Source: Clostridium sp. BJN0013
GTDB taxonomy: Bacteria; Bacillota; Clostridia; Clostridiales; Clostridiaceae
NCBI RefSeq assembly: GCF_040939125.1
Contig: NZ_CP162495.1
Location: 1,674,001 to 1,738,000, forward strand
Direction: 5' to 3'
Length of the DNA stretch: 64,000 bases
Part shown: one piece after another, positions 1 to 31,542 of the stretch
Layout of the letters: each line of letters starts with the position of its first letter
Position numbering within the stretch: the stretch's first letter is position 1
Notes under the pieces: model-generated
Told to the model about the DNA's origin: nothing
Seen by the model: only the letters and a program-made list of their open reading frames with translations
Databases searched by the model: none
Made by a program: the position numbers and the translations under genes

Positions 1-54
1 AAAATTTTCTCAAAAGTGTAAAAATAAAAACTCAAAATTATAAACTTGAGTAAG

Positions 55-390
55 TTACTTAATGCTATACAATTTATTAGCTATATTATCGGCAGAGAGC
101 TCCATACACGTATACTGCATGTCCAATCCTATTATGTATCCGATACTAGGCATATCTTCAGCTATATGTTTTACTTCATGCAAGAAAACATGGCATTGAG
201 TTTCATAATTTACATTGCCATTTAGTATGAGATGATAATTTTCACGTCTGCTTAAATAAACAAAACCTAATGTATTTGCTGGAATGCTGAAGGCTATGGT
301 GGTCTTTATATCAAATTCATTCATAACTTCATAGAAAGGAATGTCTTCGTTTAAAAGTGCCCTTAACAAAGGCTTATCCAATATGTCCAT
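55..390 (-). CDS. ImmA/IrrE-family metallopeptidase
   Basis: Likely cleaves XRE-type repressors, as ImmA does for ICEBs1 ImmR. The zinc motif HEVKH lies at about residues 71-75, followed by an E..A segment (MELSADNIA) that fits the third ligand. An in-frame ATG lies 15 bases further upstream, but GGGGGAT sits just before the second ATG, so I start there (111 aa). It is the last gene of the leftward transcript of cassette 1, after a coiled-coil gene and an XRE repressor, which suits a repressor-inactivating partner. The protein is short for the family but the motif region is complete. Confidence 0.8.
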   Translation of the reverse strand: MDILDKPLLRALLNEDIPFYEVMNEFDIKTTIAFSIPANTLGFVYLSRRENYHLILNGNVNYETQCHVFLHEVKHIAEDMPSIGYIIGLDMQYTCMELSADNIANKLYSIK

Positions 391-416
391 AATATCATCC
401 CCCATAACATTACAAT

Positions 417-788
417 TTAGTCTCTGAAATTTTTATTGGATAATTCTTTTATAAAATCGTAGGCTTTTTCACCTTTAGTTGATGTTTTAGAAATATTTTT
501 AATAGCTCTATCATGCAAAGTGTAGTTTCTTTCTATTGTTTCATTTACTTCTGCAAATTTATGATCCATTTGCTCAGATAAATTTTTGTGACCTTCAGCC
601 AGTAATTTTATATCTTTGCCTTGTTTTTCAAGCAGTACTGAATTCTTTTTAACTTCCGATTCTACAGAATTTATTCTCTCATTTACATTTTTAAATCCGT
701 TTTGCATTTCAGTATGTATGCTTTTAAGATTCTGTTGCATTTCAGAATACATTTTAGTCATAAGATCAAAAGTTTTATCTTCTTCCAC
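417..788 (-). CDS. coiled-coil protein, cassette 1
   Basis: Small, charged, heptad-rich protein (about 123 aa) of unknown function. An upstream ATG overlaps the ribosome site. GGGGGA lies 6 bases before a GTG, so I choose the GTG. The C-terminal TKGEKAYDF segment recurs in the 2024-2344 protein. It sits between the XRE repressor and the ImmA-like gene in the same leftward transcript. No enzymatic motif is visible. Confidence 0.65.
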   Translation of the reverse strand: MEEDKTFDLMTKMYSEMQQNLKSIHTEMQNGFKNVNERINSVESEVKKNSVLLEKQGKDIKLLAEGHKNLSEQMDHKFAEVNETIERNYTLHDRAIKNISKTSTKGEKAYDFIKELSNKNFRD

Positions 789-831
789 ATTACTTCCCCC
801 TTTCAATATATTTTATAGATGTGATATATGT

Positions 832-1245
832 TTATCCGTCATTTCTATCTTCTTCATCTTCAATTGCTTTTATAATTCTTATTATTTTTTTTATATCATT
901 AGGAGGCATAGCCCTAGTTTGCTTAAATAGTAGTTTTAAATCTTCTCTATCTTTTAATGAATCCCAAAACTGAGCCAATTCAGGATCGTCATTTAAAGAT
1001 TCAGTTATTTTATCGGCGGAGTCATATGAATTTTTAACATCCGTTCTTCCAAGTAAATAATCTATAGAAACGTTAAAATAATCAGCTATTTTTTTCTTTA
1101 TAGAATCACTAGGAATTCTTTTGCCTGATTCGTATTGAGACAATGTTGTATTAGCTATGTTAAGTATTTTAGCCAATTCCAATTGGCTTATAGATTTTTC
1201 TTCACGTAAAATTCGTATTCTATTTCCTAATATATTATTTTCCAT
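832..1245 (-). CDS. XRE-family repressor, cassette 1
   Basis: CI-like DNA-binding protein of 137 aa. The N-terminal HTH (about residues 8-62) includes SQLELAKILNIANTTLSQYE. The C-terminal part is acidic and helical, probably for dimerisation. It is divergent from the Cro-like gene at 1424, with TTTCnCAnnATGTGAAA-type dyads between them. It heads the leftward transcript that also carries the coiled-coil and ImmA-like genes, so it probably autoregulates and may be the ImmA-like protein's substrate (inference). Confidence 0.85.
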   Translation of the reverse strand: MENNILGNRIRILREEKSISQLELAKILNIANTTLSQYESGKRIPSDSIKKKIADYFNVSIDYLLGRTDVKNSYDSADKITESLNDDPELAQFWDSLKDREDLKLLFKQTRAMPPNDIKKIIRIIKAIEDEEDRNDG

Positions 1246-1257
1246 CTATTATTTTCC

Positions 1258-1395
1258 TTTCACAATTAGTGAATTTAAACTTATTATAGCAGATAGTTTA
1301 TTAAAATATAATATTTTTCACAAAATGAGAATAAAGCATTGACTTTCTCATAATGTGAAAGTATAATAAAGATAAAGACTTTGCTTATTGTGAAA
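1258..1395. promoter_or_regulatory. operator/promoter region of cassette 1
   Basis: The rightward promoter has -35 TTGACT at 1339-1344 and -10 TATAAT at 1362-1367, with 17-bp spacing. Dyads are TTTCACAATTAGTGAA (1258-1273), TTCACAAAATGAGAA (1317-1331) and TTTCTCATAATGTGAAA (1344-1360, inside the promoter spacer). A weaker half-like copy lies at 1381-1395. They resemble a lambda-style multi-operator switch. Confidence 0.7.
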
Positions 1396-1423
1396 CAAGG
1401 AGGTGATTGGAACGAACAATAAA

Positions 1424-1651
1424 ATGAAATTTTATAGGCAAAAAAATAATCTAACTCAAGAAGAAACAGCTAAAAAGTTAGGTATCTCAGTTAGTGCCTA
1501 TAATATGATAGAAAACGGTAATAGAGGAATATCTCTATTAAGGGCAAAGGAGTTAGAAAAAATATTTAAAGCTACAATGGATGAAATTTTTTTTAATAAT
1601 AGCTTTCACAATAAGCAAAATATACAAGAATTCCAAAAGGAGGTCGTGTGA
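1424..1651 (+). CDS. Cro-like XRE regulator, cassette 1
   Basis: Small HTH protein (75 aa from ATG 1424). A GTG at 1403 overlaps the AAGGAGGTGA ribosome site. The spacing to 1424 is long, so the start is not certain. The HTH spans LTQEETAKKLGISVSAYNMIE. The C-terminus is KEVV, encoded by AAG GAG GTC GTG, which doubles as a ribosome site for an ATG overlapping the stop. It is transcribed from the promoter at 1339-1367. Confidence 0.75.
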   Translation: MKFYRQKNNLTQEETAKKLGISVSAYNMIENGNRGISLLRAKELEKIFKATMDEIFFNNSFHNKQNIQEFQKEVV

Positions 1652-1746
1652 TGGATGCAAAGCTCCATCTACCTAGCAGATTTAAGGTAAGCTATATCCA
1701 TGATATTCTTACCAGTGGCACTTTCAATAAAAGCTACATCTTTTGA
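1651..1746 (+). pseudogene. truncated accessory ORF of cassette 1
   Basis: The ribosome site and TGATG start after Cro 1 match the start of the accessory gene of cassette 2 (GTGTGATGGATG), but identity is lost within about 10 bases. The reading frame stops after 31 codons while running antisense through the end of the 1669-1977 gene. I read this as a recombination scar that removed the accessory gene. Confidence 0.4.
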
Positions 1747-1977
1747 CAGTATATCAACATCTTTTTTTATTGATTGTATATCACCGAAAATATTAGCTAA
1801 ATCATGCTTCATATTTTCCTGTTCAGCTTTTATGACATCTACTTTATGTTCAAGAGCTTTAAGAATTTGAGTATTTTCAGATGTTTGAGATTGAAGTCCA
1901 TCAAATTTGGATTCAAGCCCGTTAAGTTGAGATTGCATTGATTCGAGGACTTTTAATATTTTTTCTTCATTGTTCAT
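1669..1977 (-). CDS. coiled-coil protein, cassette 2 distal
   Basis: 102-aa heptad-repeat protein of unknown role, with AAAGGAATGA upstream of the ATG. Its middle part (SKFDGL.SQTSENTQILKALEH) is nearly identical to the 2024-2344 protein, while both ends diverge. The two are tandem paralogues in the leftward transcript of cassette 2. No catalytic motif is seen. Confidence 0.6.
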   Translation of the reverse strand: MNNEEKILKVLESMQSQLNGLESKFDGLQSQTSENTQILKALEHKVDVIKAEQENMKHDLANIFGDIQSIKKDVDILSKDVAFIESATGKNIMDIAYLKSAR

Positions 1978-2023
1978 GGAATCATTCCTTTCGATTTATT
2001 TTAAATACCAAAATCAAATATAG

Positions 2024-2344
2024 CTAATTCTCAGATGTAGAAAACTTGTTAAAGTTTTCAAGGAAATCATAAGCTTTTTCGCCTTTAGTTACAGCAGCTT
2101 TAATTGATTTTACATCACCGGATAATTCAGCAACAGCATGGGTTAAATTATCTATTTCAGCCTTATGTACTTGGGAGCTATGTTCTAATGCTTTGAGGAT
2201 CTGAGTATTCTCTGATGTTTGAGATTTAAGACCATCAAATTTTGATTCAAGTGTACCAAATCGAGATTCAAGATTATTAAGACGTTCGTTGGTTTTATTT
2301 TGAGAATCAAGTATTTGTTGTAATAGTTTCTCGGTAGAAGGCAT
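2024..2344 (-). CDS. coiled-coil protein, cassette 2 proximal
   Basis: 106-aa predicted coiled coil directly downstream of the XRE repressor at 2367 (22-base gap, GAAAGGATATG ribosome site). It is a mosaic: the middle matches the neighbouring 1669-1977 gene, and the C-terminal TKGEKAYDF matches the 417-788 protein of cassette 1. Function unknown. Possibly a partner of the repressors. Confidence 0.6.
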   Translation of the reverse strand: MPSTEKLLQQILDSQNKTNERLNNLESRFGTLESKFDGLKSQTSENTQILKALEHSSQVHKAEIDNLTHAVAELSGDVKSIKAAVTKGEKAYDFLENFNKFSTSEN

Positions 2345-2366
2345 TTATATCATATCCTTTCAGAAT

Positions 2367-2672
2367 TTATTTTAGGGATTGTATAAATTTAGATAACAAC
2401 TCCAATTGCTCTGGACTAAGGTCACGAATAGCATCAAGTAGATTTCTTATTTCAGGAGTAATAGAAGATGAATTGAAGAAATCACTAATACTTATTCCAA
2501 AATAGTTGCATATTTTAAATAGATTATCTAAAGATGGTAATTTATTTCCGTTTTCAATTTGAGTTATGTATGAATTTGATAGACCTAAATCAAGACTTAA
2601 TTTTCTACTAGAGATATTTTTACTCAATCTTAATTCAGTTATTCTTTTAGCAACAAAAGCTACATCATTCAT
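2367..2672 (-). CDS. XRE-family repressor, cassette 2
   Basis: 101-aa HTH protein. The DNA-binding segment SSRKLSLDLGLSNSYITQIE lies at about residues 21-40. The C-terminal segment SSITPEIRNLLDAIRDLSPEQ is closely related to that of the cassette 4 repressor (ITPELKELL..AKDLTPSQLE), so these two share a dimerisation tail but differ in the recognition helix. It is divergent from Cro 2. Confidence 0.85.
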   Translation of the reverse strand: MNDVAFVAKRITELRLSKNISSRKLSLDLGLSNSYITQIENGNKLPSLDNLFKICNYFGISISDFFNSSSITPEIRNLLDAIRDLSPEQLELLSKFIQSLK

Positions 2673-2696
2673 AATATACCTGCTTTCTAATAGTTA

Positions 2697-2808
2697 GCAT
2701 ACTTAAGTTTATTTTATTAATTTTTATCCTTTTAAACAACGTAATTAATATAAATGCTAACTTTTAGTAAATATTTATATTGACATGCTAACTTAAAGTA
2801 AGTATAAT
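2697..2808. promoter_or_regulatory. operator/promoter region of cassette 2
   Basis: Consensus rightward promoter TTGACA (2780-2785), 17 bp, TATAAT (2803-2808). Three related sites are GCATACTTAAGTTTA (2697-2711), GCTAACTTTTAGTAAATA (2756-2773) and GCTAACTTAAAGTAAGTA (2787-2804). The last covers the promoter spacer. The motif differs from the other three cassettes. Confidence 0.7.
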
Positions 2809-2837
2809 GTAATTAAAGTTAGGAGGTGCATTTAAAA

Positions 2838-3056
2838 ATGAACCTAAAAAATAATATTAAAAAATATAGAGCACAAAAAAATTTATCGCAAAGAGAGCTG
2901 GCAGAAAGAGCCAAAGTAACTCCTGCCTATATAGCGTTATTAGAAACTGGGGATAGAGAAAATCCATCTACAAATATACTGTTAAGGCTATCCATGGTAT
3001 TAGAGGTATCAGTAAGCGAACTTTTGGGGCTAAACGAAGCAAAGGAGGTCGTGTGA
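2838..3056 (+). CDS. Cro-like XRE regulator, cassette 2
   Basis: 72-aa HTH protein (SQRELAERAKVTPAYIALLETG). ATG 2838 is placed 9 bases after AGGAGGTG. The upstream GTG at 2826 overlaps that site and is rejected. It ends in KEVV, the codons of which form AAGGAGGTCGTG and supply the ribosome site of the next gene, whose start overlaps the stop (TGATG). Confidence 0.8.
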   Translation: MNLKNNIKKYRAQKNLSQRELAERAKVTPAYIALLETGDRENPSTNILLRLSMVLEVSVSELLGLNEAKEVV

Positions 3057-3313
3057 TGGATGAAGAGCGACAGGTTAATGAGACTGCTCCTGAAGTATCA
3101 GTTAAAGAGCAATCAGATTATACAACTGAATACAAAATAGATAAACCAGTACGTTTAATATTAACTACTGATAAAAATTTATATGATGAAATTATTAATA
3201 AAAGTAATGGGATACCACTTCCTATGGTTTGCTCATCTACAAAGGCCGTGGGAATTTGTTTAAGTCAATCCGGTCAGGCTTTGTACTTGGTTCAAATCCC
3301 TGTGGGTAAATAG
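3056..3313 (+). CDS. unknown accessory protein, cassette 2
   Basis: 85-aa protein, not recognised. The N-terminal third is acidic and probably flexible, then a compact part (RLILTTDKNLYDEI...GQALYLVQIPVGK). Translation is coupled to Cro 2 through a TGATG overlap. The last 77 bases overlap the end of the convergent gene at 3237-3476, so the C-terminus may be chimeric. Confidence 0.5.
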   Translation: MDEERQVNETAPEVSVKEQSDYTTEYKIDKPVRLILTTDKNLYDEIINKSNGIPLPMVCSSTKAVGICLSQSGQALYLVQIPVGK

Positions 3314-3476
3314 GATCATCTGCTTTGTTCCATACAAATTGAATGAAAGTATGTACTTTAGCAAGATCCCAAGTACCATTGCATTTCCATCCAAGGGATG
3401 TGAATTTATTAAAGACTTCATCAAATTCAGATTGTTTCATACGTTCAATTGACAAATTGAATATATGCTCTTTCAT
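3237..3476 (-). CDS. unknown small protein, cassette 3
   Basis: 79-aa protein with a good AAAGGTGGTGATAATT ribosome site, directly downstream of the cassette 3 repressor. The sequence is W- and K-rich (GWKCNGTWDLAKVHTFIQFVW). Not recognised. Its last 25 codons run antisense to the accessory gene of cassette 2, marking the cassette junction. Confidence 0.5.
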   Translation of the reverse strand: MKEHIFNLSIERMKQSEFDEVFNKFTSLGWKCNGTWDLAKVHTFIQFVWNKADDPIYPQGFEPSTKPDRIDLNKFPRPL

Positions 3477-3493
3477 TAATTATCACCACCTTT

Positions 3494-3733
3494 CTAAATA
3501 TCAAAATCAATATTTTGAAAAACAGGTGATTTGAAAAACTCATACAAAGGAATTTCAACACCATAGCATATTTTTAAAATGGTTTTAAGTTGAGGATTTT
3601 TACTTTTACCATTAATTATACTATCTACCGTTGATTGTGTGAGTCCCGAAATAGATGCAAGTTTATTTACACTTATGTTTTTATTTTTGCATAGTTCAAG
3701 TATTCTTTCAGCTGTAGCTTCTGATATGTTCAA
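3494..3733 (-). CDS. XRE-family repressor, cassette 3
   Basis: 79 aa from a TTG lying about 7 bases after AGGTGGTG. Upstream in-frame GTG codons overlap the ribosome site. The HTH segment is SVNKLASISGLTQSTVDSIINGKS. It is the shortest repressor of the array, with almost no C-terminal domain. It is divergent from Cro 3 and flanked by three near-perfect 18-bp dyads. Confidence 0.8.
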   Translation of the reverse strand: MNISEATAERILELCKNKNISVNKLASISGLTQSTVDSIINGKSKNPQLKTILKICYGVEIPLYEFFKSPVFQNIDFDI

Positions 3734-3748
3734 TAATAACACCACCTG

Positions 3749-3861
3749 TTAACGAATTACCGTTAAAACAATTATATCAAAATAATAGAAAAACTTTTAA
3801 CGATAGATCGTTGACAATTTATAAAAGTAATAATATAATAATATTAACGATACATCGTTAA
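3749..3861. promoter_or_regulatory. three-operator switch region of cassette 3
   Basis: The clearest operator set in the array: TTAACGAATTACCGTTAA (3749-3766), TTAACGATAGATCGTTGA (3797-3814) and TTAACGATACATCGTTAA (3844-3861). The rightward promoter is TTGACA 3811-3816, 17 bp, TATAAT 3834-3839. Site 2 overlaps the -35 box, site 3 lies just after the -10 box, and site 1 lies beside the leftward gene start. Confidence 0.85.
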
Positions 3862-3885
3862 GAAGTAAAAAGGAGGTTCTTAATA

Positions 3886-4098
3886 ATGTTCGGCAAAAAA
3901 CTTAGACAAGTAAGAACTAAACTCAAATGGTCACAGGCATTTTTATCTAAGAAAACCGGCATACCGCAAACTACAATTAGTGATATAGAAACCGGTAAAA
4001 GTATAGCCAATGTTGAACAAGCACTAAAGCTATCCCAAGCCCTAGAAGTACCGATAAGTAAACTGCTGGAGTTAGATGAAGTAAAGGAGGTCGTGTGA
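3886..4098 (+). CDS. Cro-like XRE regulator, cassette 3
   Basis: 70-aa HTH protein (SQAFLSKKTGIPQTTISDIETGKS), with AAAAAGGAGGTT upstream of ATG. The tail ISKLLELDEVKEVV resembles Cro 4 (VSKLLELDD...KEVV). The KEVV codons again form the ribosome site of the next gene. Confidence 0.8.
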   Translation: MFGKKLRQVRTKLKWSQAFLSKKTGIPQTTISDIETGKSIANVEQALKLSQALEVPISKLLELDEVKEVV

Positions 4099-4289
4099 TG
4101 AATGCAGATATTTTAAAAAGCTTAACAGAGCAATTTAATTTATTAAAAAATCAATGTCAGGAAATAGTTTCAAGCGAAACAATCGAACCTGAGCAATATG
4201 ATTTTTTAATAAAAGCTTCTTTAGCTATGATTGATATTACTAACTGCTTGTCTGGTTATTATCAATTGAATCAAGAGTCTTACAAATAG
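4098..4289 (+). CDS. unknown accessory protein, cassette 3
   Basis: 63-aa predicted helical protein (ILKSLTEQFNLLKNQCQEIV...), translationally coupled to Cro 3 by a TGATG overlap and the AAAGGAGGTCGTG site. It bears no similarity to the accessory protein of cassette 2 despite the same position. Function unknown. Its 3' end overlaps the convergent gene at 4240. Confidence 0.5.
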   Translation: MNADILKSLTEQFNLLKNQCQEIVSSETIEPEQYDFLIKASLAMIDITNCLSGYYQLNQESYK

Positions 4290-4431
4290 ACTTAATGGCG
4301 CTAGTAACAGTATTAATATTTGCACCAAAACCCCAGGAAACTGTATTGTTGTTATTTATAGTAGTTTTAGGGTTAGAGTTAATCATAGCAATGACAACAT
4401 CCACAGCGAGTTCTTTATTGGTTTTTGACAT
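4240..4431 (-). CDS. small protein of cassette 4, separated from its repressor by IS110
   Basis: 63-aa protein starting MSKTNKELAVDVVIAMI; not recognised. Its ATG is the edge of the block shared by the two IS110 copies. Removing the element restores GGGAGGTAA, a short gap and ATG directly after the repressor at 6095, so it was the second gene of the leftward cassette 4 transcript. The element end now supplies a GAAAGGAATG ribosome site. Confidence 0.55.
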   Translation of the reverse strand: MSKTNKELAVDVVIAMINSNPKTTINNNNTVSWGFGANINTVTSAIKSICKTLDSIDNNQTSS

Positions 4432-4454
4432 AATAACATTCATTCCTTTCGCTG

Positions 4455-4731
4455 TGCTCAAGGCACAAAAATTAATGAAAGAGTGATTAAAATTACCAAT
4501 TACTGTGAATAATATAGACAAGTATACAGGTGTACTACAGAGCACGGCGGGGTGAGTGTGATTGCACTTCACTGTAATCCGTATAATAACATGTGCCGAT
4601 TACTCTTTTAAGTACAAATAAGTGTGCCCTAGGGCACGTAAGTTAATCTTTGTTTAAACAAAGACCGTTTAAAAGTATGAGTATTCAGTCAACACCTGTG
4701 TACTTTATTTTTTTATTTGTAGGTGATATAA
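4455..4731 (+). ncRNA. candidate bridge RNA region of IS110 copy A
   Basis: IS110-group elements encode a bridge RNA in the non-coding left end. This stretch contains a hairpin with stem GTAATC/GATTAC (4574-4579, 4598-4603). The loop holds ATAATAACAT (4583-4592), identical to the left target flank (4430-4439). Further stems are GTGCCC/GGGCAC at 4624-4637 and an 18-nt palindrome at 4647-4664. Exact ends and transcription are inferred, not seen. Confidence 0.5.
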
Positions 4732-6003
4732 ATGTTAAAAATCGTTTATTCTATTTGTTGCGGTATTGATGTTCACAAAAAATTTGTAGTTGCAACTGTA
4801 ACATCAACCAATGAGAATAACATCACTACCTATGCAACCAAACAATTCAGTACTTACTCAAAGAATCTTTTCCATTTAAAAGAGTGGTTATCTGAGCATA
4901 ACTGTAAAGAAGTTTGTATGGAAAGCACCGGAAAGTACTGGATACCTATCTATAACATACTTGAAGATTCCTGTAATATTACTCTGGCTAACCCAAAGTA
5001 CGTTAAAAACATTCCCGGCAAAAAAACTGATAAAAAAGATTCTCTATGGCTTGCAGACTTACATAAGCATGGATTAGTTAAAGGAAGTTTTATTCCTCCA
5101 AAGGCCATAAGAGAACTACGAGACCTTATGCGCTATCGCTTTAAACTTACAAATTTCCGTTCAAGTGAGAAAAACAGATTCCAAAATTCATTAACAGTTT
5201 CAAATATCATGATTTCAAGCGTAGTATCAGATACCTTTGGTAAATCATCATCAGCTATAATTAAATATGCCATGGAGCATCCTGATAAATTAGATATAGA
5301 CTATACTCAATTTCTACACAAGAGTATGTTATCTAAGGCTGACGAAATTAAGATTGCTATGCAAGGAAGCATCTCTAAAAATCAAACAGCAAAGATGTCT
5401 GTATGCTTGAATCATTATGATTATATTAACAATTGTATTTCTCAACTTGATACTGCCATTTCATTAATTTCAAGTGAATTTAAGTCACAAATTGAGCTTA
5501 TTGCTTCTGCCCCTGGGATAACTACACAATCTGCTACAACTATAATTTCTGAAATTGGAGTGGATATGTCAGTCTTTCCAGATGCTAAACATCTGTGTTC
5601 TTGGGCAGGTCTTACACCACAAAATAATGAAAGTGCTGGCAAAAAGAAAAGTGTTCGTATAAGCCGTGCCGGAGCTTATTTAAAGCCAATACTTATTCAG
5701 TGTGCTAATGCAGCAATAAAAAACAAGTCCTGCCCATACTTTAAATATCGTTATGAAAGTATAAAGAAAAGACGTGGGCACAAAAGAGCAATTATTGCTA
5801 TAGCAAGAATGCTTTTAACCTGTATTTATAATATGCTTTTAAAAAATGAAGCCTTTGATAATTCTATTTATGAAAAATATCTAAAAAGAGAAAACACTTC
5901 TCGACATTTTCAACCTGATATAGATAGAATTATTTTATTTCTTCAAGCTCAAGGCTTTGAAGTAACAAAAGTAAGTCAAGAGATATCACCGAAAATAAGT
6001 TGA
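4732..6003 (+). CDS. IS110-family DEDD transposase, copy A
   Basis: 423 aa, full length. The N-terminal RuvC-like DEDD domain starts GIDVHKKFVVATV (Asp near 13), with MESTGKYW and the KTDKKD motif following. The C-terminal domain has SAPGITTQSATTIISEIG and the conserved WAGLTPQNNESAGK block that carries the catalytic serine in this family. It differs from copy B by Ser versus Pro at residue 7. Not disrupted, so possibly active. Confidence 0.95.
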   Translation: MLKIVYSICCGIDVHKKFVVATVTSTNENNITTYATKQFSTYSKNLFHLKEWLSEHNCKEVCMESTGKYWIPIYNILEDSCNITLANPKYVKNIPGKKTDKKDSLWLADLHKHGLVKGSFIPPKAIRELRDLMRYRFKLTNFRSSEKNRFQNSLTVSNIMISSVVSDTFGKSSSAIIKYAMEHPDKLDIDYTQFLHKSMLSKADEIKIAMQGSISKNQTAKMSVCLNHYDYINNCISQLDTAISLISSEFKSQIELIASAPGITTQSATTIISEIGVDMSVFPDAKHLCSWAGLTPQNNESAGKKKSVRISRAGAYLKPILIQCANAAIKNKSCPYFKYRYESIKKRRGHKRAIIAIARMLLTCIYNMLLKNEAFDNSIYEKYLKRENTSRHFQPDIDRIILFLQAQGFEVTKVSQEISPKIS

Positions 6004-6094
6004 TTTTTAATTATAAATAATATAAGTCTCTTTTTTTGACCTCATTTTAATAGGTCTTTTTGTCATGTTCAAAAACACCTGAATTTCTTTCAAG

Positions 6095-6415
6095 TTACCT
6101 CCCGTCCTTGAAAGCCTTGGCAGTTATTTTAAGAGCTTCAAGTTGGGAAGGGGTTAAATCCTTAGCACTATTTAAAAGTTCCTTGAGTTCAGGGGTAATG
6201 TTTTCTAATTCAAATTGAGAATCAGAAGAAAAAAGTTCAACAAGGGTGATATTAAGGGCTGAACATATTTTCGAAAGCGTAACTATGGTAGGGGATTTCT
6301 TACCAAGTTCAATTTCGCTTATTGTGGATTGTCCAAGACCTGCTTTTTTAGCAAGTTTATCAGCACTTAGATTTTTAGATGTTCTTATATTTCTAATTTT
6401 TTCACCAATTTGCAT
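6095..6415 (-). CDS. XRE-family repressor, cassette 4
   Basis: 106-aa CI-like protein. The HTH is SADKLAKKAGLGQSTISEIE at about residues 17-36. The tail ITPELKELLNSAKDLTPSQLE is shared with the cassette 2 repressor. The stop codon coincides with the last bases of the IS110 shared block, so the gene is intact but cut off from its downstream partner at 4240-4431. Divergent from Cro 4. Confidence 0.85.
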   Translation of the reverse strand: MQIGEKIRNIRTSKNLSADKLAKKAGLGQSTISEIELGKKSPTIVTLSKICSALNITLVELFSSDSQFELENITPELKELLNSAKDLTPSQLEALKITAKAFKDGR

Positions 6416-6438
6416 TTTTTAAACCGTCCTTTTTTATA

Positions 6439-6520
6439 ATCGCTATAGCAATTATAACATATATTTTTATAATATTTTTATCGCTATAGTATTGACATTA
6501 AATCGCCAAAGCGATAAAAT
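6439..6520. promoter_or_regulatory. operator/promoter region of cassette 4
   Basis: Rightward promoter TTGACA (6492-6497), 17 bp, TAAAAT (6515-6520). Three 14-bp sites are ATCGCTATAGCAAT (6439-6452), ATCGCTATAGTATT (6480-6493) and ATCGCCAAAGCGAT (6502-6515). Site 2 touches the -35 box and site 3 fills the spacer up to the -10 box. The motif is unlike the other cassettes. Confidence 0.75.
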
Positions 6521-6542
6521 ACAATTACAGGAGGTGTTCAAG

Positions 6543-6761
6543 GTGAATAAACTTACTAAGTTGAGAGAATCAAAAGGTTGGTCTCAACAAAAGCTAGCTG
6601 ATAAATCAGGAGTATCACAAGCATATATAAGTGAACTGGAACTCGGGAGAAAAAATCCCACAGTTAAAATATTGCTAAAACTATCCCAAGCCTTAGAAGT
6701 ATCGGTAAGTAAGTTGCTGGAGTTGGATGATACAGAACCAACTCAAAAAGAAGTAGTATAG
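6543..6761 (+). CDS. Cro-like XRE regulator, cassette 4
   Basis: 72 aa from GTG 6543, placed after AGGAGGTGTTCAAG. The HTH is SQQKLADKSGVSQAYISELELG. It ends in KEVV as in the other Cro proteins, but here the codons are AAA GAA GTA GTA and no longer make a ribosome site. The next gene lies 75 bases on with its own site. Confidence 0.8.
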   Translation: MNKLTKLRESKGWSQQKLADKSGVSQAYISELELGRKNPTVKILLKLSQALEVSVSKLLELDDTEPTQKEVV

Positions 6762-6836
6762 CCAACTCACACAATAATTAAAACTGCATATAATACTGTA
6801 GCTAAGTATGCTTAAAAATACCGGGGAGGTGTTATT

Positions 6837-7016
6837 TTGCAAAAGCCAATAAACGTAAGAGTCCATTATCCAGAAGATCCTAAGCTGCTTGATGAATTGG
6901 AAACAAGGAAAGCAAGATCTTTTGTTAGGGCATTAGTGAGTGAATATGAACTACCTCCTGACCAGATAGATGAACTTATAGAAAGAATAAAGGAAAAACA
7001 AACAGTGGCTAGTTAA
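6837..7016 (+). CDS. small ribbon-helix-helix-like protein
   Basis: 59 aa from TTG 6837 after GGGGAGGTGTTATT. The sequence INVRVHYPEDPKLLDELE and SFVRALVSEYEL has the beta-strand then helix-helix pattern of RHH regulators. It fills the accessory position of cassette 4. The family call is from pattern only. Confidence 0.5.
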   Translation: MQKPINVRVHYPEDPKLLDELETRKARSFVRALVSEYELPPDQIDELIERIKEKQTVAS

Positions 7017-7200
7017 AGATTCATCTACCAGGGATAACAAACAAGTTAACTAAAGCTTAAATATCTTAATTTATATAATAAGTATATTTAAAGTAACAAC
7101 TTAAATATAACAAACTTTAAAGTAGATATAAATATGGTAAAATCTACATTTTAAAAAATATCTATCAAAGATTCTACAGCGAAGGGAGGTGACAGAAAGA

Positions 7201-7716
7201 GTGATAGGAACTGCAATAAAAGAAGCTAGGGAAGAAAGGGGGATGACACAAGAAGAATTAGGGCAACTAAGTTTTTTATCAGACAAAATGATAAGCGCTA
7301 TAGAGACAGGCAGGAGGAGACTAACAAAAGAGAATTTAAAAAACATTTGTAAAGAGCTTGATGAACCAAGGCTTTATTTTGAAGCAGCAAGTGAAGTTAC
7401 TGGTGATGTTTTTACATTACATTGGTTGGATGGTGAAGCTACTGATTTACACAGGGCTTCTGTAAAGGACAAGGTAATAGAAGAATTAGACGAAGCAATA
7501 AAAGCAATAAATTTAACAAAACTTTATAAAAAACCAATTTGTTGTAATTCAGAGGATAAAGAAATTATAGAAGAAAGCATACAGGAGACAATAGATGTTT
7601 ACATTGCAAGTGCTATTTACATAGCAATAATGTGCAAAGAATATAGTGTAAATATTAAAGGAATGTTTGATCAGCAGAAAGAAAAAATGATTACTCGCAG
7701 ATACATTAAAAGATAA
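7201..7716 (+). CDS. HTH (XRE) regulator with unknown C-terminal domain
   Basis: 171 aa from GTG 7201, 9 bases after GGGAGGTGAC. An upstream GTG at 7189 overlaps that site. The N-terminal HTH is TQEELGQLSFLSDKMISAIETGRRRL. The C-terminal 110 residues are helical and not recognised. It is the first gene on the early rightward side after the switch array and may set early gene expression (inference). Confidence 0.7.
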   Translation: MIGTAIKEAREERGMTQEELGQLSFLSDKMISAIETGRRRLTKENLKNICKELDEPRLYFEAASEVTGDVFTLHWLDGEATDLHRASVKDKVIEELDEAIKAINLTKLYKKPICCNSEDKEIIEESIQETIDVYIASAIYIAIMCKEYSVNIKGMFDQQKEKMITRRYIKR

Positions 7717-7837
7717 GAATATCCGCTACTATATAAAAATTATTTTGTAGATAAATGCAAAAACTTCTCCAATATATTCTATGCTGCAAAGTAAAAATTA
7801 TTACTATTAAAAATAAAAAACGAAAGGATGGTCTAAG

Positions 7838-8065
7838 TTGGCAAAATACAAACTACGTGAAAAAGTAAGATTTGAATTTAAGTGCCACGAAACCAGGGTA
7901 GGAACTATAAAGAAAGTTAAAAAAGGATTGTTCGGTACTAAGTATCTAATTACAGTTGCATATTCAAGTTCTTTATTAGGTACAAATTCAAATACATGCT
8001 TTTACTGGATGAAGGAAGATAAAATAATTGAGAATCTTCCACCTGGTTATAAAGGGTGGTACTAG
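7838..8065 (+). CDS. hypothetical phage early protein
   Basis: 75 aa from TTG after GAAAGGATGG. Basic, probably an SH3-like small barrel by its KV/VGTIKKVKKG pattern. Not recognised. First of a run of closely spaced small early genes. Confidence 0.5.
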   Translation: MAKYKLREKVRFEFKCHETRVGTIKKVKKGLFGTKYLITVAYSSSLLGTNSNTCFYWMKEDKIIENLPPGYKGWY

Positions 8066-21374: not shown

Positions 21375-22646
21375 TCAACTTATTTTCGGTGATATCTCTT
21401 GACTTACTTTTGTTACTTCAAAGCCTTGAGCTTGAAGAAATAAAATAATTCTATCTATATCAGGTTGAAAATGTCGAGAAGTGTTTTCTCTTTTTAGATA
21501 TTTTTCATAAATAGAATTATCAAAGGCTTCATTTTTTAAAAGCATATTATAAATACAGGTTAAAAGCATTCTTGCTATAGCAATAATTGCTCTTTTGTGC
21601 CCACGTCTTTTCTTTATACTTTCATAACGATATTTAAAGTATGGGCAGGACTTGTTTTTTATTGCTGCATTAGCACACTGAATAAGTATTGGCTTTAAAT
21701 AAGCTCCGGCACGGCTTATACGAACACTTTTCTTTTTGCCAGCACTTTCATTATTTTGTGGTGTAAGACCTGCCCAAGAACACAGATGTTTAGCATCTGG
21801 AAAGACTGACATATCCACTCCAATTTCAGAAATTATAGTTGTAGCAGATTGTGTAGTTATCCCAGGGGCAGAAGCAATAAGCTCAATTTGTGACTTAAAT
21901 TCACTTGAAATTAATGAAATGGCAGTATCAAGTTGAGAAATACAATTGTTAATATAATCATAATGATTCAAGCATACAGACATCTTTGCTGTTTGATTTT
22001 TAGAGATGCTTCCTTGCATAGCAATCTTAATTTCGTCAGCCTTAGATAACATACTCTTGTGTAGAAATTGAGTATAGTCTATATCTAATTTATCAGGATG
22101 CTCCATGGCATATTTAATTATAGCTGATGATGATTTACCAAAGGTATCTGATACTACGCTTGAAATCATGATATTTGAAACTGTTAATGAATTTTGGAAT
22201 CTGTTTTTCTCACTTGAACGGAAATTTGTAAGTTTAAAGCGATAGCGCATAAGGTCTCGTAGTTCTCTTATGGCCTTTGGAGGAATAAAACTTCCTTTAA
22301 CTAATCCATGCTTATGTAAGTCTGCAAGCCATAGAGAATCTTTTTTATCAGTTTTTTTGCCGGGAATGTTTTTAACGTACTTTGGGTTAGCCAGAGTAAT
22401 ATTACAGGAATCTTCAAGTATGTTATAGATAGGTATCCAGTACTTTCCGGTGCTTTCCATACAAACTTCTTTACAGTTATGCTCAGATAACCACTCTTTT
22501 AAATGGAAAAGATTCTTTGAGTAAGTACTGAATTGTTTGGTTGCATAGGTAGTGATGTTATTCTCATTGGTTGATGTTACAGTTGCAACTACAAATTTTT
22601 TGTGAACATCAATACCGCAACAAATAGGATAAACGATTTTTAACAT
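21375..22646 (-). CDS. IS110-family DEDD transposase, copy B
   Basis: 423 aa, identical to copy A except Pro instead of Ser at residue 7 (base difference at 22628). All DEDD and C-terminal serine-domain motifs are intact, so it may still be active. Confidence 0.95.
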   Translation of the reverse strand: MLKIVYPICCGIDVHKKFVVATVTSTNENNITTYATKQFSTYSKNLFHLKEWLSEHNCKEVCMESTGKYWIPIYNILEDSCNITLANPKYVKNIPGKKTDKKDSLWLADLHKHGLVKGSFIPPKAIRELRDLMRYRFKLTNFRSSEKNRFQNSLTVSNIMISSVVSDTFGKSSSAIIKYAMEHPDKLDIDYTQFLHKSMLSKADEIKIAMQGSISKNQTAKMSVCLNHYDYINNCISQLDTAISLISSEFKSQIELIASAPGITTQSATTIISEIGVDMSVFPDAKHLCSWAGLTPQNNESAGKKKSVRISRAGAYLKPILIQCANAAIKNKSCPYFKYRYESIKKRRGHKRAIIAIARMLLTCIYNMLLKNEAFDNSIYEKYLKRENTSRHFQPDIDRIILFLQAQGFEVTKVSQEISPKIS

Positions 22647-22923
22647 TTATATCACCTACAAATAAAAAAATAAAGTACACAGGTGTTGACTGAATACTCA
22701 TACTTTTAAACGGTCTTTGTTTAAACAAAGATTAACTTACGTGCCCTAGGGCACACTTATTTGTACTTAAAAGAGTAATCGGCACATGTTATTATACGGA
22801 TTACAGTGAAGTGCAATCACACTCACCCCGCCGTGCTCTGTAGTACACCTGTATACTTGTCTATATTATTCACAGTAATTGGTAATTTTAATCACTCTTT
22901 CATTAATTTTTGTGCCTTGAGCA
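22647..22923 (-). ncRNA. candidate bridge RNA region of IS110 copy B
   Basis: Same sequence as 4455-4731 on the opposite strand. The guide-loop hairpin lies at 22775-22804 and the palindrome at 22714-22731. The flanking target at this second site again contains ATAATAACA at the left end, matching the loop. Confidence 0.5.
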
Positions 22924-22946
22924 CAGCGAAAGGAATGAATGTTATT

Positions 22947-23240
22947 ATGAAGATAATAAATAGAATTAATCTATCAAGAAATATGTATGGATTAGTTCAA
23001 TGTAATATATACACCTTTTTAGCTAAATATAAAAATACTAAAAATAGTAAGTTAAAAAAGTTTGTTATAATGCTAAAGTTCTTTTTTAGTTTTTGTAAGG
23101 TTACCCAGAAAAGTTTTGAAGAATTATGCAAAGATGCATACCCAATACTTTCTAAATCAAGGAATATATTTACAGATCATGCACAATTACAGTTTAAGGA
23201 ATTAGAAACTATATTTAAAATAGAGCGAAAAAATCATTGA
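22947..23240 (+). CDS. hypothetical protein
   Basis: 97 aa starting at the IS110 copy B edge (ATG 22947). The element end supplies GAAAGGAATG as ribosome site. Basic, with a hydrophobic stretch (VIMLKFFFSFC). Originally coupled to the upstream peptide by ATGA. Not recognised. Confidence 0.45.
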   Translation: MKIINRINLSRNMYGLVQCNIYTFLAKYKNTKNSKLKKFVIMLKFFFSFCKVTQKSFEELCKDAYPILSKSRNIFTDHAQLQFKELETIFKIERKNH

Positions 23241-30243: not shown

Positions 30244-31542
30244 TTAAGAAACTGATCTTGAAAAATTAGTAACATACATTTGGTTGTGCAGTTTTGGTTC
30301 ACGAATTTCATAAGGCTTTTGATCTCTAAGAACTGCAAATATGTACTTTACAAGTTTGTGCATAATTGCACAAAGAGCAACTTTCTTCTTCTTACCATTT
30401 AAGTTTTTATTGCGATACTGGTAAAGAACACTGTTAATTGGTTTACCAGTTTTGGATTTTCTTATTGATGCAAGAGCAGCAGCATAAAGTGCTCTTCTAC
30501 CAAAGCGTGTACCACGCTTGGACATTTTATTTTGGTCACTATTAAATTTCCCGGATTGACTAACTGAAGGGTCAATTCCAAAGAAAGCAACCATTTCTTT
30601 TGGATGCTTGAACCTTGTAGGATCGCCTATTTCACTCATTATGGTTACAGCTGTAATAAAGCCTATACCTTTGAAAGAAAGAAGCAATGCTATGTTGTTC
30701 TTAAATGAAGCAGGTGTTGAGTCATTTTTAACTGCTGATTCTATTTCATTTACTAGAGTTTCAATTTGTTCATTAATGATGTTTAAAAGCTTTATATTTA
30801 TGCCTATAGTTACTTTAAAGGAATTATTGGTTATTCCTATTTGTACAGCACTTAGTGCAGCGTTTAAAAGTTTGTTATATGTGTTTGTACACCAGTCAAT
30901 TGATTTACAAGAATTTTCCTTTAGTAAAGCAATTAAATCATCTTTTGGTGCATCAACAATTGCTTTAGGGGATGAAAATTTACTTAAAACTGCTAATGAA
31001 GTAACACCAGCTACGTCAGAAAAAACATTATGATATCCAGGAAAAAACGTTCTAAGATCAGAAGATAACTTTTTCTTGAACTGGGAACGGTTATCTATAA
31101 GGCTGTAGTAATCACGACAAAGTGATCTTACAGCAAATATTGGGATATCTAAATAATCAGACATTTTTATATTTTGAAATTTTGCTATGTTTGCAATAGT
31201 TAAGGCATCCATTTTATCATTTTTCACTTTTCTTATTCCTAAATTTTTGTTACTATTAGTAATAAGAGGATTTATAACGAAAGTTTCTAATTCGTTATTC
31301 TTTAGGAAGTGGAAAAGAGTTAAATGGTAAACACCAGTTGATTCCATGAAAAGTGATGGTTTCATGGAGAACTCTTTTTCCACTTTTCTCATTTCTTTGA
31401 GAAGATAAGAGAAACCATCAGAAGTGTGCATTATCTTGAAAGCCTTTCTATAAACTGCTCCATCAGGGGCTAGTATTGCAACCATAGAATAATCAGCAGA
31501 AACATCGATACCTACTACAGGTAAATTAAAAAATTTTGACAT
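30244..31542 (-). CDS. IS110-family DEDD transposase (second type)
   Basis: 432 aa. DEDD start GIDVSADYSMVAI, MESTGVYH and KVKNDKMDALTIA. C-terminal serine-domain block VAFFGIDPSVSQSGKFNS and RRALYAAALASIRKS. Only distantly like the copies at 4732 and 21375. No disruption is seen. Confidence 0.95.
   Translation of the reverse strand: MSKFFNLPVVGIDVSADYSMVAILAPDGAVYRKAFKIMHTSDGFSYLLKEMRKVEKEFSMKPSLFMESTGVYHLTLFHFLKNNELETFVINPLITNSNKNLGIRKVKNDKMDALTIANIAKFQNIKMSDYLDIPIFAVRSLCRDYYSLIDNRSQFKKKLSSDLRTFFPGYHNVFSDVAGVTSLAVLSKFSSPKAIVDAPKDDLIALLKENSCKSIDWCTNTYNKLLNAALSAVQIGITNNSFKVTIGINIKLLNIINEQIETLVNEIESAVKNDSTPASFKNNIALLLSFKGIGFITAVTIMSEIGDPTRFKHPKEMVAFFGIDPSVSQSGKFNSDQNKMSKRGTRFGRRALYAAALASIRKSKTGKPINSVLYQYRNKNLNGKKKKVALCAIMHKLVKYIFAVLRDQKPYEIREPKLHNQMYVTNFSRSVS

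Follow-up and report, generated by a model that had tools for sequence, protein, structure and literature searches.

In the lambda-type switch, the repressor gene and cro are divergent and three operators are placed around a strong rightward promoter, and in ICEBs1-type elements the XRE repressor ImmR is accompanied by the metalloprotease ImmA. The locus described here, positions 55–7016 of a 64,000-nt stretch of Clostridium sp. BJN0013 (the window; bases 1,674,001–1,738,000 of a one-contig 4.10 Mb genome), lies in an apparent prophage and contains a tandem array of four divergent repressor/Cro-like gene pairs, here called switches or cassettes 1–4. Each pair resembles lambda CI/Cro in its divergent genes and in three (predicted) operators around a strong rightward promoter, but four such switches stand in a row, their operators differ, and no self-cleavage domain was found in the repressors. 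Cassette 1 is also reminiscent of ImmR/ImmA, as its XRE repressor shares an operon with a small HExxH protein, although this protein is without a Pfam match, a coiled-coil gene lies between the two genes, and cleavage is here only putative.

More than one immunity locus per phage is known. Bipartite or tripartite immunity has been described for P22 (immC and immI), P1, P7 and N15; the immunity described for Cluster A mycobacteriophages, which have single related repressors, is asymmetric (available part of PMC6550527). As described in that part, the extra loci act on the main repressor (P22) or form multilayered circuits, whereas the present switches are adjacent and look autonomous. Relatives of the array (compared loci and genomes are labelled L and G, respectively, with a number) resemble the multipartite phages in having Arc-like pairs (L051 and L011), a T5orf172 protein (L011) and an AntA/KilAC antirepressor behind cro (L132). 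For Gifsy-1 and Gifsy-2 of Salmonella LT2, recombination after co-residence has been reported, and immunity regions move between co-resident prophages (available part of PMC3121763). Such exchange is what the Gifsy phages have in common with the mosaic described below; they differ, as far as that source is available, in having one immunity region per phage, and no antirepressor match was found among the window cassette genes (Pfam, PHROG). Stacked autonomous CI/Cro switches were not described in the available parts of the literature searched.

Four switches and their predicted operators

All eight regulators exceeded the Pfam HTH_3 cut-off of 23 bits (30 to 67 bits) and form four divergent pairs of a repressor and a Cro-like helix-turn-helix (HTH) protein, as in the lambda-type switch, with the repressors on the reverse strand and the Cro-like proteins on the forward strand. 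CI1 (832–1245; HTH_3 59 bits) is a hybrid of an L056-type HTH and an L010-type tail, and is paired with CRO1 (1403–1651; 55.9 bits), the start codon of which is uncertain. CI2 (2367–2672; 56.4 bits), a short repressor with a conserved tail and 97% identity to the L049 repressor, faces CRO2 (2838–3056; 52.8 bits), which ends in a KEVV tail coding for a ribosome-binding site (RBS). CI3 (3494–3745; HTH_26 39.6 bits, HTH_3 30 bits) has no long tail, is 93% identical to the L050 repressor and is paired with CRO3 (3886–4098; 58 bits). CI4 (6095–6415; 58.7 bits) is again a short repressor with a conserved tail, and is paired with CRO4 (6543–6761; 67 bits).

The four best sigma-70 matches in positions 1–8000 were the four cro promoters, which alone scored 11 or 12 of 12 and all have a 17-nt spacer: TTGACT-17-TATAAT for cro1 (1339–1367; 11 of 12), TTGACA-17-TATAAT for cro2 (2780–2808) and cro3 (3811–3839; both 12 of 12), and TTGACA-17-TAAAAT for cro4 (6492–6520; 11 of 12), all on the forward strand. 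The total of 46 promoter-like sites in this region was by itself no excess (shuffle mean 41.9). The leftward repressor promoters were weaker (best 8–10 of 12), as expected where a weak repressor promoter faces a strong cro promoter. With eight HTH regulators and four top-scoring cro promoters, the analysis bears out an earlier note on this sequence, in which four tandem divergent switches were placed at 55–7016.

Each switch contains three copies of its own predicted operator motif: TTTCACA-type in switch 1 (1258–1360; sites at 1258, 1316, and 1344), ATGCTAACTT-type in switch 2 (2684–2801; 2684, 2754, and 2785), TTAACGAT-type in switch 3 (3749–3861; 3749, 3797, and 3844) and TAATCGCTATAG-type in switch 4 (6437–6517; 6437, 6478, and 6500). 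The promoter spacer is filled by one of these sites in switches 1, 2, and 4. In the 76 kb scanned, no fourth site reached the own-site score of any switch, neither in another switch nor elsewhere in the prophage; the view that each switch has a different operator was thereby upheld for the predicted sites, which form four motif sets. The nearest off-switch sites were two switch 4-like sequences inside both copies of an IS110 transposase (17.3, compared to 18.4 for the weakest own site). With the site itself masked, the mean best match of an operator set was 13.7–15.7 of 17–18 in its own region, compared to 10.0–12.0 in the other three regions. At one motif length, the score of the three-copy motif was reached by 1, 4, 0, and 0 of 300 dinucleotide shuffles for switches 1–4, respectively; at the other length it was reached by 194, 102, 70, and 87, which gives no support. 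Regulation through a LexA-like box (GAAC-N4-GTTC) was rejected, as the window had 10 hits at up to one mismatch against 12.15 expected.

No self-cleaving S24 domain was detected in CI1–CI4 (83–137 aa), for which Pfam at E ≤ 0.01 gave HTH-type models only; many known phage repressors likewise lack this domain. The tail shared by CI2 and CI4 was modelled as two helices with low confidence (one AlphaFold model, mean pLDDT 74.5, tail 52–64). Solved structures of 67 sequences matched the repressor profile; among the 60 listed, mostly the HTH part was covered, and those running past profile position 79 into the tail were 9sf2, 3ivp, 8bny, 8v32, 5jub, and 9iaq.

Related arrays and mosaic origin

A profile of short repressors (A1) was searched at E ≤ 1e-18 in 194 genomes of the family, with at most 25 candidates scored per genome, so that the locus count is a lower bound. 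It matched at least 20 places in 8 of the 194 genomes, which were grouped into 14 mapped prophage loci. Two or more switches in tandem were found in 13 of these, and at least four in three: the window (four), L051 (four, one of them a ribbon-helix-helix pair) and L132 (at least four, up to the contig end). L011 contains three, including one ribbon-helix-helix pair, L135 contains one, and L012, L049, L050, L052, L053, L055, L065, L133, and L134 contain two. Relatives with one, two, three and at least four switches, for which a search had been suggested, are thus present, and the premise that phages normally carry one such switch does not hold for these phages, most of whose loci (9 of 14) have two. 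In three of the 13 tandem loci a switch is broken or ambiguous, leaving 10 of 14 with two or more clear switches: the second repressor of L012 is split between two frames, the second (inner) switch of L055 is without the cro promoter and half of cro, and ~640 nt lie between the genes of the first pair in L065. An outer-type switch only was found in L010, L056, L059, L062, L094, and L095; other XRE-bearing loci, e.g., L013, L015, L017, L018, L054, L058, L060, and L061, stand outside the classified set. In a phage collection, CI2 matched six unannotated records, all below 60% identity.

The features of the window switches recur in a table of 32 switches from 15 loci, which omits the second switches of L012 and L055 and the first of L065 for want of a clear intact region, and which holds near copies (L049.2 and window 2, L050.2 and window 3, L051.1 and L053.1). 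A cro promoter of 11 or 12 of 12 was present in 21 of the 32, compared to 1.9% of shuffled regions, and a 17-nt spacer in 28, although the promoter score slightly favours this spacer length. The three-copy motif beat all 40 shuffles in 21 switches and was reached by at most one shuffle in 26; it was unconvincing in L049.1, L050.1, L051.1, L053.1, L133.1, and L056.1. Arc-like ribbon-helix-helix divergent pairs were found in the same arrays as XRE pairs (L011, 10232–11326; L051, 10146–10632). The L051 pair has a palindrome in the promoter spacer and its right-hand gene ends in KEVV like the cro genes, while the T5orf172 protein of L011 is encoded behind the Arc-like pair. The AntA/KilAC antirepressor gene of L132 (8778–9596) lies behind the second cro of a four-switch array from another genus.

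On DNA level, the array is composed of pieces with different closest partners: window positions 1–1078 matched L010 (84%), 1049–1652 L056 (85%), 1634–2001 L012 (87%), 2025–2415 L011 (87%), 2263–3016 L049 (94%), 3492–4080 L050 (89%), and 6725–7055 L053 (95%). Switches 2 and 3 each correspond to the inner switch of a G004 prophage (L049 and L050, respectively, which are separate prophages of this genome), with 0–1 differing positions per operator site. In 13 genomes of the genus, sites of switch 2 were paired only in the window and L049 (the other nine hits being solitary), and those of switch 3 only in the window and L050 (one other, solitary hit). Hits to the switch 1 operator were at background rate in the genus-wide search, and the switch 4 pattern at up to two mismatches found one of its own three window sites, one site in L011 and solitary ones in G011, G003, G005, and G006. 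The operator of the third L011 switch resembles that of window switch 4, with two differences from the switch 4 consensus.

Most partner changes are located in the tails of repressors or near the 3′ end of cro, the unit exchanged being the HTH/operator/HTH core. Between L132 switches 3 and 4, a 132-nt repressor 3′ part (95%) and a 253-column cro block (88%) enclose an unlike core of ~300 nt, and among 15 inner repressors (105 pairs, with the L135 repressor cut to its last 110 residues) the tail was more conserved than the HTH (mean identity 0.56 against 0.42, and higher for the tail in 89 pairs). When checked against the idea of a common recombination site as in integrons, the partner changes were found to be spread over homologous gene parts. 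The pattern AAGGAGGTNGTRTRATGRANG, present at three of the four window cro ends and in six places in the 13 genomes, is the RBS/start of the accessory gene; in viral contigs this RBS motif was found in 13 stretches, five of them known arrays (L099, L100, L105, L106, and L111) and eight without an array. The best explanation of the array is a mosaic assembled through homologous exchange, with the conserved tails of the repressors and the 3′ ends of cro as its sites. This agrees with an earlier suggestion of a site that collects cassettes, as the pieces match different prophages and relatives carry two, three or four switches. A metagenome contig (L098; IMG/VR 3300029823_000310) was identical to window positions 1–2139, which disfavours an assembly artefact at the first junction, the one junction it includes. 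Its integrase, however, is the tyrosine integrase found in prophage L010, so that this module is different as well.

Sequence comparisons showed purifying selection on switches 2 and 3. The ratio of nonsynonymous to synonymous substitution rates (dN/dS) was 0.058 for CI2, 0.117 for CRO2 (58 codons), 0.060 (versus L050) and 0.104 (versus L055) for CI3, and 0.134 for CRO3. For CI3, 12 synonymous and 4 nonsynonymous changes were assigned to the window branch, 6 and 1 to L050 and 12 and 10 to L055/root, with 3 ambiguous. In cassette 1, dN/dS was 0.151 for CRO1, and 0.241 and 0.317 for CI1 in comparisons crossing its hybrid border.

Accessory genes, IS110 element and prophage context

The gene order from the left is integrase, repressor fragment, HSDR_N protein, ImmA-like gene, cc1, CI1/CRO1; cc2a, cc2b, CI2/CRO2, acc2; sm3, CI3/CRO3, acc3; sm4, IS110, CI4/CRO4, acc4; X5. 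The first leftward operon extends past the window start up to the HSDR_N protein. Its last gene within the window is an open reading frame (ORF; 55–405, reverse strand) for an ImmA-like small protein with an HEVKH motif (by reading), which had no Pfam match at E ≤ 0.01 and a weak PHROG match (E 0.0017). Beyond the HSDR_N protein lie a repressor C-terminal fragment and the serine integrase (named by reading and by blastp among the loci). The HSDR_N-domain protein itself (L009 10893–11963, corresponding to window −1107 to −37), in or beside the outer repressor operon, is 92–93% identical in L010 and L049.

Coiled-coil proteins trail CI1 (cc1, 417–806) and CI2 (cc2b, 2024–2344), with a further one in cassette 2 (cc2a, 1669–1977), all on the reverse strand. 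The ORFs acc2 (3053–3313, forward), acc3 (4095–4289, forward) and sm3 (3237–3476, reverse, trailing CI3) were without a family match in Pfam and PHROG. The accessory gene acc4 (6837–7016, forward) is 88% identical to the gene behind the inner cro of L053, and the ORF sm4 (4240–4431, reverse), the trailing gene of cassette 4, had weak PHROG matches (E 0.009). The earlier description of small genes accompanying each regulator stands in general, except that an insertion sequence (IS) splits CI4 from sm4 and that the accessory gene downstream of cro1 appears, by comparison with L012, to be reduced to its first codons.

This IS110 element (4429–6097, forward; transposase 4732–6003, by Pfam), the ends of which were taken from other genome copies (approximately ±4 nt), is absent from the earlier note; it is inserted at the point where CI4 stops and sm4 starts. 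A second copy at window positions 21375–22646 (reverse strand) is 99.9% identical over 1669 bases, and the left end has 12 further genome matches at 99–100% outside the window. Another IS110-type transposase (432 aa) is encoded upstream of the prophage at L009 1745–3043, and a leftward ORF of equal length lies between prophage head genes at window positions 30244–31542.

The prophage apparently extends from ~3.73 kb upstream of the window to ~54.33 kb within it. At the left edge the serine integrase abuts part of an oxidoreductase-like gene, and a further piece of a gene of this kind lies at the right edge (both by reading). PHROG matches were obtained for nine of ten large prophage proteins scanned (replication, terminase, portal, four head proteins, tail sheath or tape measure, and endolysin), the exception being the protein at 22806–23240; because of the tail sheath the prophage is considered myovirus-type. 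A second related prophage (L011, L009) lies directly upstream in tandem (G000, ~1,630,900–1,670,000). The array is located between the integrase and the early genes, and its right border is X5 (7189–7716, forward), an XRE regulator heading the early genes (Pfam HTH_3; phrog_1124, transcriptional regulator). As a probe, X5 had no match in 50,697 phage records and gave four weak loci in genome contigs and three in viral contigs. Inverted repeats upstream of X5 (7057–7166, e.g., TATATTTAA...TTAAATATA) are possibly its own operator. Switch 4 is the only switch adjoining X5, and no terminator was found between them.

Proposed stacked superinfection immunity and competing explanations

We propose, at roughly even confidence, that the phage itself uses the outermost and innermost switches, and that its interior switches act in trans to repress related phages as they enter, a form of stacked superinfection immunity. 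Each repressor would keep its own cro promoter off in the lysogen. The outermost and innermost switches would probably run the phage's own lysogeny and lysis, since the former is on the integrase side and the latter adjoins the early genes, and the output of the interior switches would probably be in trans, because no other target was predicted in the prophage. CI2 and CI3 would bind the near-identical operators of related phages using those switches, in particular L049/L050-type phages, and block them, so that one prophage would confer immunity to several phage types. Such immunity, raised as one possibility in the earlier note, is a sound prediction from the G004 inner switches and their operators. 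Two prophages residing together in G011 have a 1334-nt outer cassette in common (99.3%) but different inner switches, which fits an inner switch that sets lytic specificity.

Several observations weigh against this proposal. A further block of 6.8 kb is common to the G011 prophages at 99.9%, so that their matching outer cassettes may stem from recombination after the two came to reside together. The selection seen on switches 2 and 3 may predate their interior placement and stem from a main-switch role in other phages; the selection test covers switches 1–3, switch 4 being without a close relative. The broken inner switches of L055 and L012 show that such switches can decay; as L055 has lost its inner cro promoter, either the early genes can do without it or the L055 prophage is itself defective. 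The innermost cro promoter may drive X5, but X5, with its upstream inverted repeats, may equally have a promoter of its own.

The array could instead provide layered control of one prophage, in which transcription of each cro opposes the next repressor and flipping spreads toward the early genes, giving a multi-input or delayed lysis decision. The convergent junctions are compatible with this: the overlaps by tens of bases claimed earlier were found at the second and third (77 and 50 nt), while the first has a 17-nt gap, and no intrinsic terminator was found in the junction search. Strong cro promoters facing weaker repressor promoters also fit, as do the shared repressor tails, which allow a common inducer, and Gifsy antirepressors act on repressors with different operators (available part of PMC3121763). 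The operators are private to each switch, however, without cross-sites, and switch number varies from one to four among relatives. A separate scan gave eight weak terminator-like sites in positions 1–8000 (shuffle mean 3.1), among them one near the IS left end, facing sm4 (4637–4624), and one just past acc2 (3388–3400), which also counts against this explanation; we consider layered control possible but rather doubtful. A neutral origin, in which switches are occasionally gained by tail recombination, function rests with the outer and inner ones, and those between them are decaying, would account for the broken switches of L012 and L055, the repressor fragment upstream of the array, the IS inside cassette 4 and the truncated accessory gene after cro1. 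It is at odds with the eight regulators, four cro promoters and four operator sets that are all intact in the window, with the low dN/dS of switches 2 and 3, and with arrays of at least four switches in two other prophages, and is considered unlikely.

That the switches are the remains of several tandem degenerate prophages, each contributing an immunity end, is highly improbable. Tandem prophages do occur here, as that of L011 directly upstream, but no integrase or structural genes were found between the switches and the same compact layout is present in 12 other prophages, of which three have a broken or ambiguous switch, so this idea, named earlier as one that would undo the array, was rejected. 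XRE pairs with small partner genes could also suggest a toxin-antitoxin or defence island, and CRO1 weakly matched a PHROG annotated as plasmid antitoxin with HTH domain (E 6.7e-5, one of 13 families), while weak PADLOC matches came from the HSDR_N protein (E 1.2e-4) and, at best with E 7.3e-6, from the coiled-coil proteins. The matches were weak throughout, the small genes matched no toxin family (Pfam, PHROG), and the divergent layout has three operators per pair; this explanation was rejected as having next to no likelihood.

If stacked superinfection immunity applies, the arrays may, more tentatively, have grown as a ratchet. A phage gaining a new innermost switch would escape the repressors of its relatives' lysogens, while its old switch, now interior, would still exclude those relatives; immunity would then be one-way, the array would record earlier specificities, and through the tails that the repressors share, a single inducer would be able to release several switches together. 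The loci make up a natural series in which one phage immunity locus occurs with one, two, three or four switches, and they provide sets of repressor/operator pairs that are alike in layout and, judged by sequence, lack cross-sites. As near-identical operators are present in other sequenced prophages, the ways in which phages acquire new immunity specificities, and whether the old ones are retained, become open to direct test.

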